This document shows, piece by piece, positions 24,900-28,745 of a stretch of DNA of 28,745 nucleotides (position 1 is the stretch's first letter; every line of letters starts with the position of its first letter). The position numbers and the translations under genes were made by a program. The notes beneath the pieces were generated by a model. The model saw only the letters and a program-made list of their open reading frames with translations. It did not search any database and was not told the DNA's origin. Source of the DNA: a virus; the IMG/VR virus record IMGVR_UViG_3300021373_001602, positions 1-28,745 of that record. One strand, written 5' to 3'.

Positions 24900-25247
24900 A
24901 TGCCTACAATTAAAGTCCCACGAGAGATACAAGTAATAGCCCAGCGTGCAATAAACTATAACCTCGAGCAGCCCATTAGTAAACGTGCAGCGTATAAAGA
25001 TGAGGGAGGGAAGAGAGTTCCCGGTACTGGAATGAGAACCGCTAGAAGATTAGCACGAGGAGAAGTAGACTTAAAGCAGTTAGAGTTAATGGATGCTTGG
25101 TTCGCTAGACATGGAGAAGCGGAAGCAGAATCGAAAGCAAGGCAAGATAAAACGAGTAAGGCTGCTGTGGCCTGGGCTCTCTGGGGAGGTACTCCTGCTC
25201 GATCTTGGGTTAAGCGTGCAATCAGAAGCCTTCGATCTAATGAATAA
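24900..25247 (+). CDS. Plus-strand conserved phage protein (115 aa)
   Basis: ATG 24900 has TATAGGAGGCTTC before it. An upstream extension to 24762 would overlap the divergent gene and is rejected. The 115-residue product carries a pattern I recognise from a common phage family of unknown function: VPREIQVIAQRAINYNLEQP, then RTARRLARGEVDLKQLELMD, AWFARHGEAEAES, AAVAWALWGGTPARSW and a basic end. In related proteins the motifs FARH and AWxLWGG are conserved. It is one of only two plus-strand genes and borders the iteron array, whose first repeat begins at the last base of its stop codon. Confidence 0.75.
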   Translation: MPTIKVPREIQVIAQRAINYNLEQPISKRAAYKDEGGKRVPGTGMRTARRLARGEVDLKQLELMDAWFARHGEAEAESKARQDKTSKAAVAWALWGGTPARSWVKRAIRSLRSNE

Positions 25248-25287
25248 CACTAGATAACACTAGATATACACTAGATAACACTAGGTA
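25247..25287. repeat. Four-copy 10-bp iteron-like array
   Basis: ACACTAGATA occurs at 25247-25256, 25257-25266 and 25268-25277, and as ACACTAGGTA at 25278-25287. Spacing is 10, 11 and 10 bases, one helical turn each, so a protein could bind all copies on one face. The inverted form CCTAGTGTTA recurs at 25470-25480 and ACTAGATA at 25516-25523. Such arrays mark replication origins or operators. Confidence 0.85.
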
Positions 25288-25313
25288 AAATCTACGATAC
25301 TATCGCTGCTACG

Positions 25314-25346
25314 GGCTCGAAGTGCTAATATATAGGGCTTCGAGCC
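25314..25346. other. Perfect 9-bp inverted repeat
   Basis: GGCTCGAAG (25314-25322) and CTTCGAGCC (25338-25346) are exact inverse complements, separated by 15 AT-rich bases that contain TAATATAT. No U tract follows in either direction, so a terminator is unlikely. It could be an origin cruciform, a binding site for a dimer or an RNA structure. Confidence 0.6.
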
Positions 25347-25421
25347 TTGCTGCGTGTATATATAATATAAATAAGTATATCAATTTATATTCTCTATATA
25401 AACTGAGTACTAATATAGGGC
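25322..25421. repeat. Two copies of a TAATATAGGGC-type element
   Basis: GTGCTAATATATAGGGC (25322-25338) and GTACTAATATAGGGC (25407-25421) are near-identical and lie in the same direction 85 bases apart. Each looks like a -10 box (TAATAT) followed by a start region. Matching -35 boxes are not obvious, so these could be promoters that need an activator, or protein-binding sites. Confidence 0.5.
25355..25383 (-). promoter_or_regulatory. Weak candidate leftward promoter for the late block
   Basis: On the minus strand TTGATA (25383-25378) is followed after 17 bases by TATACA (25360-25355), inside a very AT-rich run with alternative -10 boxes. It would read leftward through the array and antisense to the plus-strand gene into the late genes at 24869. 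AT-richness makes chance matches likely. Confidence 0.3.
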
Positions 25422-25473
25422 TATTTTTGGTACTTCGTTCTCTATCTATCGGAGTTATCGCAGAATAAACCTA

Positions 25474-25515
25474 GTGTTATTTACTGTATTTTTTGTGTTA
25501 TTTACTGTATTTTTT
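25474..25515. repeat. Perfect tandem 21-bp repeat
   Basis: A 21-base unit starting GTGTTATTTACTG and ending in TATTTTTT occurs twice without a gap (25474-25494 and 25495-25515). The 21-base period is two helical turns. It is flanked by CCTAGTG on the left and ACTAGATA on the right, both variants of the iteron. A close match occurs in the early promoter region at 3056-3075. Confidence 0.85.
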
Positions 25516-25594
25516 ACTAGATACGGAGGCATCTGGTTTATTTTTCTTACTGGATATCAAGTATTACTATAGTTCTGCATAGGATTCTAAACGC

Positions 25595-25623
25595 AAAAAG
25601 AGCCCGGAGAGAACTCCGGACTC
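25595..25623 (-). terminator. Intrinsic terminator of the early operon
   Basis: Reading leftward GAGTCCGGAG (25623-25614), loop TTCT and CTCCGGGCTC (25609-25600) make a 10-bp stem with one G-U pair. Five U residues (25599-25595) follow. It lies 80 bases past the cytosine methyltransferase stop, the last gene of the early block. Confidence 0.9.
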
Positions 25624-25702: not shown

Positions 25703-26536
25703 CTATCCGTTATATTCTCCAGCCTGTAAGATTCCACTCTCCCAGAGTTGCTTCCCTATCCATTCTGAGCATTGAGGAACAATAGCATTCCCTAGGGCTG
25801 CAATTCTGTCCACCCTATTGGGAATCCCATCATCTCTTCTACAAATTGAGGACTCAATCGGAAATTCGTTCCAGTAATTTCTCTCTTCTTTATATACTCT
25901 CCCACTACTGTGTTTAAGCATCTCTGATACTTCCCTGTATGCCTGCTCGGTGTTAGTGGGTTCATCTTGTGATCGGTCTTGGTTGGAGTAGGAAGAGAGC
26001 CTCCGTTCATTGCTAATATAGTATCCAATCGTTCTCGGGTAAGCGATACAGAACCATCTCGCTCTTTTATGAGGGGCTCCGAAGTCACTCGCTCGTATAG
26101 TACACCATTCCGCATCGTACCCGATTTCGGATAGCGATCCAAGTACTGTTCCAAGCCCTCGAATAGTGATCGCTGCAACGTTCTCCATAATAACTGCTTT
26201 GGGCTGTAACTCATCGATAATACGATGCATCTCCCAGTAAAGACCAGATTTTTCTCCATGTAATCCATCTCCTTTTCCTGCGGTTGAAATATCTTGACAA
26301 GGGAATCCCCCGCATAGGATATCCACTTGCTCTACATTGTTCTTCGTTATGTTTCTTACATCTTCATAGATTCGAGCCTCGGGCCAGTGCTTAGCGAGTA
26401 CCTTCTGACAGAAGTTATTCTGCTCTACTTGCCATTGAGTAAATGCTCCGGGGATCGCTCTCTCCAATCCGAGTTCGAATCCTCCAATACCTGCGAATAG
26501 GCTTCCGATACTGTATCTTCTTACTTTCTCTTCCAT
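25703..26536 (-). CDS. dcm: C5-cytosine DNA methyltransferase
   Basis: The 277-residue product methylates carbon 5 of cytosine. Motif I FAGIGG (14-19), motif IV GGFPCQ with catalytic Cys80, motif VI ENV (118-120), motif VIII-like KRARWF (157-162), and motif IX/X RVDRIAALGNAIVPQ (241-255) are all present and in order, so it looks active. The target-recognition region (about 165-235) is short. The start overlaps the helicase gene by 16 bases. With the adenine methylase it probably protects phage DNA from restriction. The last third of the gene also encodes a conserved-looking protein in the +1 frame. Confidence 0.95.
   Translation of the reverse strand: MEEKVRRYSIGSLFAGIGGFELGLERAIPGAFTQWQVEQNNFCQKVLAKHWPEARIYEDVRNITKNNVEQVDILCGGFPCQDISTAGKGDGLHGEKSGLYWEMHRIIDELQPKAVIMENVAAITIRGLGTVLGSLSEIGYDAEWCTIRASDFGAPHKRARWFCIAYPRTIGYYISNERRLSSYSNQDRSQDEPTNTEQAYREVSEMLKHSSGRVYKEERNYWNEFPIESSICRRDDGIPNRVDRIAALGNAIVPQCSEWIGKQLWESGILQAGEYNG
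25792..26268 (-). CDS. Overlapping +1-frame ORF with methylase-associated motifs
   Basis: This frame, shifted +1 relative to dcm, is open for 158 codons, and its last 70 residues are not random-looking. LPTPTKTDHK (92-101) and LSPQFVEEMMGFPIGWTEL (138-156) closely follow the pattern TPTxxD ... LNPxFVExMMGFPxGWT. I know this pattern from the C-terminal parts of phage cytosine methylase proteins or separate proteins next to them. The same DNA encodes IESSICRRDDGIPNRVDRIA in the dcm frame, also standard. The start is unclear: ATG 26268 or ATG 26010, with no good ribosome site at either. It may be expressed by internal initiation or +1 frameshifting, or be a relic of overprinting. Confidence 0.45.
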   Translation of the reverse strand: MDYMEKNLVFTGRCIVLSMSYSPKQLLWRTLQRSLFEGLEQYLDRYPKSGTMRNGVLYERVTSEPLIKERDGSVSLTRERLDTILAMNGGSLPTPTKTDHKMNPLTPSRHTGKYQRCLNTVVGEYIKKREITGTNFRLSPQFVEEMMGFPIGWTELQP

Positions 26537-27789
26537 ATCCTCTGCCCATCCAATATTACTTGTTTGTATCCGCTCTCCTTACAGATCTGTGCTATCCGCT
26601 TAGCGTTCCCCGTATGCTGCTGTGATACTGGAAGATCTAGATAGTTCATGATCTCAGTAGTATTATTTTTTCCTCCTGCGATCGCCTCTCTAACCTTGAT
26701 AGCCCAAGGATCATCGATAATATAAGCCTCCTGCAGTTCTGAGAGCATCCGCTGGGATTCCCATTCTAGATACCAGATCTCTCCCTGTAAGTATTCCTCG
26801 AGGGCTTCTGCGAAGAGTTGCTCTCTCCATGCTCTTAAGTATTCGAGATCTACTTGCTGAGTAACCGTAATAGGCCATACTCTCCGCTCCGGTCCATCGC
26901 TTAAGAACTGATAGTTATTGGAGGTCCCAGCGAAAACTACTCTACGGAGATAACTCTTTGGAAACTGCTGATAAGATGGTCTAAACTTATCCTCTGCGGA
27001 GGAGATGAACGCTTTAAAGTTATCTGCTGTTCTTCCTTGCAAGGAGTGCAGCTCTGCTAGTTCCCATAACCAAGATTCTGTACTATGGATTAACTCTAGA
27101 GAATCCTTCTTGGAGATATCGAGCGGAGAATCCGAGAACCAATCCTCTCCAATGAGAGTTTTTAATCCTGTAGACTTACCCAAGCCTTTCTCTCCGCAGA
27201 GTACAAGGAAGGTATCCATCTTGCATCCGGGCTTCATAACTCTAGCAACGAGAGAGATAATCCACTTCTTAGACATCTCCTGTATAAGTTGCTCGGAGCC
27301 TGGGATAATCTGCGCTCGGAATACATTGCGGAATAGATTATGGATTCTCTGCTCTCCATCCCACTTAGGAAGATTAGTAACCCATGCCTTGATATTCTCT
27401 TGGATATTCTTATGGGCTACCCGGAGTACTGCTCTCTTGATATCTGCGCTAGGATATCTAATGTTATATGCTCTTTCGATATGGAGTCCAATATCCTCGA
27501 GATCCGGATCCCATAACTCTCTCTCCTTCCAGATTACTTTATTACTGTGATCGTTATAACAGAGGCTCGAATAGATAGGATCGTTCTCTAAGATGAGGGC
27601 TATATTATTTCTATTGGCATAAGGCTTGGGAGTTCTAGTAAGTTCTCCATCCTTGTTATACTTCGCTTCTGACTTCTGCAGCATATCCCATACATCGATA
27701 TTAGCCTCTTCTGGAGCGAACTTATACTCCGCTTCCTGTCCTATCTGCTTAGCGATCTCTAACATCTTCTTCATTTGTTCTTGGTTCAT
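26521..27789 (-). CDS. VirE-like P-loop helicase/primase-associated ATPase
   Basis: The 422-residue product matches the VirE (virulence-associated E) family of phage and plasmid replication ATPases. A helical N-terminal part (about 1-150, with WVTNLPKWDGEQRIHNLF) precedes Walker A GEKGLGKST (199-207). A Walker B-like WLWELAEL (240-247), sensor FAGTSN (286-291) and GPERRVWP (299-306) follow. The C-terminal 60 residues look like a small winged-helix (TEIMNYLDLPVSQQHTGNAK). It probably unwinds DNA at the replication fork together with the separate primase of the same operon. Confidence 0.88.
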   Translation of the reverse strand: MNQEQMKKMLEIAKQIGQEAEYKFAPEEANIDVWDMLQKSEAKYNKDGELTRTPKPYANRNNIALILENDPIYSSLCYNDHSNKVIWKERELWDPDLEDIGLHIERAYNIRYPSADIKRAVLRVAHKNIQENIKAWVTNLPKWDGEQRIHNLFRNVFRAQIIPGSEQLIQEMSKKWIISLVARVMKPGCKMDTFLVLCGEKGLGKSTGLKTLIGEDWFSDSPLDISKKDSLELIHSTESWLWELAELHSLQGRTADNFKAFISSAEDKFRPSYQQFPKSYLRRVVFAGTSNNYQFLSDGPERRVWPITVTQQVDLEYLRAWREQLFAEALEEYLQGEIWYLEWESQRMLSELQEAYIIDDPWAIKVREAIAGGKNNTTEIMNYLDLPVSQQHTGNAKRIAQICKESGYKQVILDGQRIWKRK

Positions 27790-27794
27790 TGTGC

Positions 27795-28058
27795 TTACTC
27801 CTGTAATCTTCGTACTGCGTAGGCATATTCTACTCCGCAGTTAGCAATCGCTGCTATAATCAATCGGTTAAGATCAAGGAGAGATCCTCCCTTTACTTGG
27901 TTGAGCACCTCGCATAATAGCACGAGATTCGAGATCCGAGGAGAGAATCTCTTAGATCCATTCATGCTGCTATAACTCACTCCCGATAACTTCGAGAGTT
28001 CTGCTCGTGTTATTGGCAACCCTTCGAGTTGCTCTGCTAACCATTTATTAAAATACAT
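27795..28058 (-). CDS. Small HTH regulator (87 aa)
   Basis: The 87-residue product has a helix-turn-helix over about residues 14-50 (LPITRAELSKLSGVSYSSMN, then FSPRISNLVLLCEVL). TACGGAGGTACT precedes ATG 28058. It lies between another HTH gene and the helicase gene, five bases before the latter. The upstream gap contains GTATTTTTGTG, resembling the operator-like repeats elsewhere. Likely a replication or early-gene regulator. Confidence 0.75.
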   Translation of the reverse strand: MYFNKWLAEQLEGLPITRAELSKLSGVSYSSMNGSKRFSPRISNLVLLCEVLNQVKGGSLLDLNRLIIAAIANCGVEYAYAVRRLQE

Positions 28059-28079
28059 AGTACCTCCGTATTTTTGTGT

Positions 28080-28406
28080 TTATTGGTTATCGTTCTTATT
28101 GTGTTTTTCCTTAATACGTAGCCTTCTCTCCGCTAGTGCATTCTCCCCAGTAGATCTTATCCCTCTCAGAAGGAGCATATTATACTCCTCTCTTGTATCG
28201 CTTAAGACCTCACATATAGCGAGATATACATCTAACTTCGGATATCTCTTACCGCTCATATACGCTCGTAGTGTATTAACCTTAATCCCTACTCCCTTCG
28301 CTACTTCGTGCAAGGTCATCTCCTTATATTCTGCGTATCTGAAGATATGCAATCCGAAGGAGGTGCAGTTCATAGGAAGCGTAGGTATCTTCTTACTAGA
28401 TCTCAT
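28080..28406 (-). CDS. XRE-like HTH regulator (108 aa)
   Basis: I chose ATG 28406 because it overlaps the primase stop (ATGA) and has GGAG 8 bases upstream. ATG 28439 lies inside the primase end with no clear site. The product has an XRE-type HTH at about 25-60 (MTLHEVAKGVGIKVNTLRAY, then MSGKRYPKLDVYLAICEVL) and a basic C-terminus (RRLRIKEKHNKNDNQ). It could regulate the early block or act at the origin. Confidence 0.8.
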   Translation of the reverse strand: MRSSKKIPTLPMNCTSFGLHIFRYAEYKEMTLHEVAKGVGIKVNTLRAYMSGKRYPKLDVYLAICEVLSDTREEYNMLLLRGIRSTGENALAERRLRIKEKHNKNDNQ

Positions 28407-28745
28407 ACTAGATTCTCCAAGTATCCCCACCATCCGCATTTATTAGCCCGGTTACAGTGTGGATATCTCACTGCATGCAGAAGATCGGGATCGATTGAGA
28501 AGTAGACTTCTCTTTGGTTACAGGCTGGACAAAGTATATTCCGGGCTACGTTACCCTGGATAGATGCTCCGATCTGCTGAGCGAGTGCCATTCTATATTC
28601 TGGATTATGGAATAGAGCCTCTATTCCACTCTTCGAGCCTGCTCTCTTACTCTCCCATCTCTTATATCTTTTCTTCGGTTCCTCTTTCGGAATATGGGAA
28701 TAATCCAAGCGTAGCAGGCCCTCTCCTTTATTGGCTTTCGTTCTC
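28403..28745 (-). CDS. AEP-type primase, C-terminal zinc part (continues at 637)
   Basis: This is the rest of the primase gene that begins at 637. It overlaps the first part over the 136-base join and adds residues 213-280. Cysteines 239 and 242 (NILCPAC) and 264 and 270 (YPHCNRANKCGWWG) form a four-cysteine zinc ribbon of the kind primases use for template recognition. Here it is C-terminal to the catalytic domain, the reverse of DnaG. The gene ends at TGA 28403, overlapping the next HTH start. Confidence 0.8.
   Translation of the reverse strand, partial: RTKANKGEGLLRLDYSHIPKEEPKKRYKRWESKRAGSKSGIEALFHNPEYRMALAQQIGASIQGNVARNILCPACNQREVYFSIDPDLLHAVRYPHCNRANKCGWWGYLENLV
28610..28745. repeat. 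Terminal redundancy, right copy
   Basis: This is the second copy of the 136-base join, equal to bases 2-137 except T at 28736. Its immediate left flank (28609 G) continues the primase frame correctly (histidine 213), so this side is the reliable reading of the junction. Confidence 0.9.

Follow-up and report, generated by a model that had tools for sequence, protein, structure and literature searches.

A probable replication origin of the PICI/SaPI type in a tailed phage, with a VapE-like helicase as candidate initiator

The locus considered here raises the question of what a compact array of short repeats, placed in a noncoding gap, does for the virus that carries it. The window, the whole stretch of DNA analyzed, is a 28,745-base virus record. 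Its two ends share 137 bases, apart from two mismatches, which corresponds to a genome of ~28.6 kb; a scan of genome contigs for the host gave no true relative. The record contains genes of a tailed phage (large and small terminase, major head protein, and tape measure), and nearly all genes lie on the − strand in one long series, of which the last encodes a methyltransferase. The array occupies the gap between the 3′ ends of two converging genes, this methyltransferase gene and a small gene that is the sole clear + strand gene near the proposed origin. An earlier note, made from the sequence alone, had read the array as a likely replication origin or master control region. The present analysis indicates that the region 25247–25511 is very probably the replication origin of the phage, and we put at roughly three in four the probability that it is an origin of the PICI/SaPI type in an autonomous tailed phage, with the VapE-like protein, rather than the HTH proteins, as initiator. 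The features of the locus are as follows.

24900–25247, + strand: gene for a conserved small protein of 115 aa; its stop adjoins the left arm
25247–25287, + strand: left arm, four iterons pointing inward (ataACACTAGA, ataACACTAGA, tatACACTAGA, ataACACTAGG), phasing 10-11-10 bp
25314–25346, no strand assigned: stem-loop GGCTCGAAG...CTTCGAGCC, between the left arm and the AT-rich core
25355–25420, no strand assigned: AT-rich core, presumed melting site, about 17–25% GC
25424–25435, + strand: TTTTTGGTACTT element, which recurs in near relatives
25470–25511, − strand: right arm, four inward iterons (ataACACTAGG, aatACAGTAAA, ataACACAAAA, aatACAGTAAA)
25600–25623, − strand: intrinsic terminator, closing the long − strand operon ahead of the array
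25703–26536, − strand: C5 cytosine DNA methyltransferase gene, an optional insert between the VapE gene and the array
26521–27789, − strand: gene for the VapE-like AAA+ helicase (PF05272), the proposed initiator and a homologue of SaPI PriRep1 (7pds)
26524–26718, − strand: predicted C-terminal winged helix of VapE, residues 358–422 (model; helices and a beta hairpin)
28403–28744, − strand: primase-like gene, 3′ portion (putative Zn ribbon); the gene extends across the contig ends
2–637, − strand: primase-like gene, 5′ portion, split from the 3′ portion by the contig ends

The left arm is formed by copies of ACACTAG(A/G)TA (ACACTAGRTA) at 25247, 25257, 25268, and 25278 on the + strand, and the window holds no other copy. 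Read on the − strand, the right arm comprises ACACTAGG, ACAGTAAA, ACACAAAA, and ACAGTAAA, degenerate iterons that keep the 10/11/10 phasing of the left arm. The arms are ~190–200 bp apart, and the stretches 25247–25299 and 25456–25508 that contain them are inverted repeats, matching at 42 of 53 positions. The earlier description of inverted copies flanking a perfect 21-bp tandem holds in that the tandem (25474–25515) is exact and an inverted set lies ~190 bp away, but the tandem is the second arm itself, two helical turns of it, and the sole exact inverted copy is CTAGTGT at 25471; ACTAGATA, near 25516, is a partial iteron copy in direct orientation. The AT-rich stretch reported between the two sets is also present, with 17% GC at 25360–25419, and its TATAATATAAATA block is almost invariant among near relatives. 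The stem-loop beside it has a DNA fold z of −5.7 and shows three two-sided pair changes among near relatives, with the structure kept.

The four-copy iteron chain is far beyond chance. In 200 dinucleotide shuffles of the entire window, not even three identical 7-mers at 10/11-bp steps occurred, as against four in the window itself. The helical-turn spacing claimed for these copies is confirmed. The longest exact tandem run in 40 shuffles of the window was 12 bp, as against the 21 bp observed, and the best inverted repeat in 40 shuffles of the region matched at 31 of 53 positions, as against 42. It should be noted that the count of one 9-mer with one mismatch (5 copies in the window region) was matched in 10 of 100 shuffles and is not significant alone; what makes the array significant is its phasing, together with the exact tandem and the inverted match between the arms. 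GC skew in the window tracks the coding strand and is uninformative on the origin, because nearly all genes are on one strand. The only RNA family matches at the array locus are far below the gathering score.

Absence of the array from close relatives, which the earlier note would have counted against an origin, is not what is found. Viral contigs searched with the 115-aa protein yielded 59 loci, and a search with VapE some 150 more, many of them overlapping; in most, the same layout is present just downstream of the small gene with a different repeat word. After removal of duplicates, the two-arm array was detected in 45 VapE phages by an exact-word scan that missed L038, which has the array too. 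In these phages, 188 of the 198 steps from one exact copy to the next measure 10, 11, or 20–22 bp, the arm-to-arm distance is 188–221 bp in all but three, and the AT-rich center is also kept. The words differ by lineage (ACACTAG, ACAGATA, ATACACGTA, GCAGATA, TGACAGA, and CCACATA) around a common core, CA(C/G), which is found again in AACACTAG, ATACACCA, TTCACACGT, and others. Conservation of a layout while its word changes is the trace expected from an initiator and its iterons evolving together.

The array is also tied in position to the VapE gene. It lies 1–350 bp past the VapE stop in 25 of the 45 lineages; in the window the distance is ~1 kb, and there and in the remaining lineages at least one gene, often for a methyltransferase, intervenes. 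The methyltransferase gene is missing in the relatives L039, L040, L044–L047, and others. In the loci examined, the array falls between the 3′ end of VapE and the small + strand gene; in L074–L076 it starts directly at the VapE stop and is parted from the small gene by a further gene. All small-gene loci with a detected array have VapE downstream, and an array of this form was not found where VapE is ≤34% identical to that of the window or where the stretch seen contains no VapE. The 115-aa protein (SKRAAY..., with a WALWGG motif) is 58–94% conserved, exceeding VapE in this group, and matches no known family above the cut-off (best phrog_2859, E 0.002).

Arrays of looser form, composed of short repeats just downstream of VapE, are present in the cultured VapE phages U5, PS3, and IPLA35, in which a 9-mer occurs 9, 8, and 9 times, respectively, compared with ≤5 times in 100 shuffles (0/100 in each case). 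In L036, whose VapE is distant (about 29% identity), GGTCCCACT iterons begin 22 bp after the VapE stop and are accompanied by an inverted set, all within 22–300 bases past the VapE gene.

Boxes of the forms TTATCCACA and TTATNCACA, which we take to be DnaA boxes, provide a second line of evidence. Among 20 records, a PF05272 match is absent only from those of L077 and L078, and in L077, which lacks VapE, ten TTATCCACA boxes are packed into 157 bp at precisely the array position. This spot accounts for 10 of the 11 such boxes in the 29.9-kb record, where 0.12 would be expected in the 7.2-kb locus. In the window, the TTATNCACA boxes form no cluster and their count is at chance level. An intergenic site with VapE-type iterons in some phages and DnaA boxes in others is hard to explain except as an origin. 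In L079, which also encodes a distant VapE, the array position (1159–1281) has six DnaA boxes next to GGACATTA-like repeats, and L079 is possibly an intermediate between two modes of initiation.

The statement of the earlier note that no classical initiator is present is misleading, since the VapE-like protein has a homologue in SaPI PriRep1, an initiator helicase that loads itself. The window protein matches PF05272 with 204 bits (cut-off 25), and the profile of its family matches 7pds (“similar to D. nodosus vapE”) with an E of 2e-60 over profile positions 45–364; this sequence match, with an identity of about 23%, ends ahead of the C-terminal domain. An AlphaFold2 model of VapE (mean pLDDT 87.6) extends the similarity to nearly the full length, aligning with 7pds, PriRep1 in complex with dsDNA, over ~454 columns (E 1e-22, TM 0.66), and the next fold matches are the SaPI5 primase-helicase (7ola), NrS-1, vaccinia D5, LTag, and E1. 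From the order of elements in the model, the last 65 residues are predicted to be a winged helix, in which the helix 393–405, carrying Lys397, is in the recognition position. The suggestion that the primase/helicase pair may bind the array gains support, with VapE as the best candidate for a putative iteron-binding protein.

In PICIs, the origin directly follows the 3′ end of rep and always has two iteron sets around an AT-rich region, and the pri-rep-ori of EcCICFT073 and others drives plasmid replication (PMC6092414). In SaPI Rep and Cch2, the C-terminal domain binds iterons directly downstream of the protein's own gene (PMC7581432). The window locus has all of the features of these origins that are testable in sequence: location 3′ of a helicase gene, two iteron sets, and an AT-rich stretch between them. 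With the origins of SaPIbov1, SaPI1, EfCIV583, and EcCICFT073 (PMC6092414, PMC7581432) it shares the place 3′ of the gene for a self-loading initiator helicase, a primase encoded adjacent, and an iteron word that varies by element while the layout is constant. It differs in belonging to a tailed phage that encodes its own terminase, head, and tape-measure proteins and in which no integrase was found; in that relatives often have a methyltransferase gene between helicase and array; in its inward arms, strict 10/11-bp phasing, arm spacing of about 200 bp, and stem-loop beside the core; and, compared with SaPI PriRep1 (7pds) and the SaPI5 primase-helicase (7ola), in having the primase-like protein as a separate gene. 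SCCmec Cch2, with its AAGTG iterons, is likewise a helicase that binds direct repeats just downstream of its gene through its C-terminal domain, but it has three iterons and belongs to the D5/Primase_Cterm group, not PF05272 (PMC7581432). That the element is itself a PICI can be rejected, as it has its own terminases, head, and tape measure and no PF00589 or PF00239 match. Lambdoid (O protein) origins are likewise phage origins with iterons beside an AT-rich stretch; they have one iteron set, located within the O gene, and rely on loading of the DnaB helicase of the host. The window, in contrast, has two mirrored sets in a noncoding gap and a phage-encoded helicase, and its record gives no DnaB_C match. 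Iteron origins of the lambdoid type are treated in PMC7466680.

The layout kept in relatives, the DnaA boxes in VapE-less L077, and the match to published PICI/SaPI origins together support the origin reading, as proposed in the earlier note. The element is real and well conserved and, given the PICI origins, ordinary in kind; such origins have apparently been little described in autonomous phages, and nothing was found in the open literature on VapE, iterons, and phage together. Finding one layout in dozens of autonomous, uncultured phages, and more loosely in the three cultured VapE phages, ties these phages and satellites to one replication module, points toward a role in replication for VapE proteins, which often carry only the annotation “virulence-associated,” and provides a naturally occurring series of initiator-iteron pairs that could be used in a test of specificity.

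We infer that the C-terminal winged helix of VapE would bind the iterons, one VapE oligomer assembling on each inward arm. The AT-rich core between the arms would then melt, two helicases would load in face-to-face orientation, and the primase-like protein, encoded alongside in the same operon, might prime both forks. The mirrored arms suggest two opposed assemblies and hence bidirectional firing.

A different origin mechanism, in which HTH_C, the primase-like protein, or the small + strand protein binds the iterons directly and the binder loads VapE, is unlikely but deserves the most attention among the alternatives. Most array loci contain HTH_C (gene at 1720–2235) and the primase-like gene, and in distance (Mantel) tests with VapE core distance controlled, iteron distance follows the N-terminal part of VapE and the primase-like protein at least as closely as it follows the C-terminal domain; for the primase-like protein, r is 0.33 (p 0.006). 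The same test gives an r of about 0 for the small protein and only a weak relation for HTH_C (p 0.11), the array sits at the VapE stop in L074–L076, and the helicases SaPI Rep and Cch2 bind iterons themselves (PMC7581432). HTH proteins had also been put forward as binders of the array; HTH_A and HTH_B are unlikely in this role because 18 array loci have no detectable homologue of either, which leaves the weak signal of HTH_C.

If VapE is the binder, part of its specificity may be visible at residue 397. Window-type lineages with ACAC iterons have Lys397 and ACAG lineages have Arg397, and of 330 VapE columns, this residue correlates best with the C/G of the iteron core (phi 0.78), although the lineages in this correlation are not independent. 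In a tree of the helicase core, residue and iteron change together more than once: in the window clade inside an Arg/G group, in the ACACGTA group beside an Arg/G group, and in L150 compared with L070/L076. A universal code of Lys for C and Arg for G is rejected by exceptions, Arg occurring with C in L178, L123, and L176 and Lys with G in L209, while L211 is mixed. Because of these exceptions, the greater number of co-changes at column 84 than at 397, and the whole-domain distances, Lys/Arg397 is kept as a lead and not as proof. The broader proposal, that PICI-type origins are used in a large environmental group of autonomous tailed phages and repeatedly switch specificity, partly through Lys/Arg397 matching ACAC/ACAG, is therefore tentative and on balance doubtful. 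Were it true, origin recognition would be partly readable from sequence, and co-infecting relatives could be kept from firing each other's origins.

It is far less probable that the array is an operator cluster or transcription control region bound by a protein of the Xre HTH type. The phage does encode several small HTH proteins, and phased repeats occur in operators too, but promoter-like sites are no commoner than in shuffles, HTH_A and HTH_B are missing from the 18 loci mentioned above, and DnaA boxes take the place of the array in L077. The array also lies between converging 3′ ends, beyond the terminator of the − strand operon, and the idea of a master control region is for this reason unsupported.

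That the array serves in recombination, partition, or packaging (as attP with arm sites, as parS, or as pac/cos) is the least credible reading, for although short-site arms around a core resemble arm-type integrase sites and contig ends of relatives lie 0.5–2 kb away, no tyrosine integrase (PF00589) or resolvase (PF00239) match was obtained in nine records, ParB_N is found in one of the nine and not in the window's, and the contig ends are on the other side of the small + strand gene, near terS, not at the array. The ParB_N match is in the record of L053 (G002), at 27856–28089, in a 409-aa frame. The near-full-length contig ends of L043, L048, L053, L072, L077–L079, L084, L088, and L089 cluster upstream of the small gene and beside terS, in a region equivalent to 23.3–24.9 kb of the window, which suggests a packaging start (cos or pac) near terS, 0.5–2 kb upstream of the small + strand gene.
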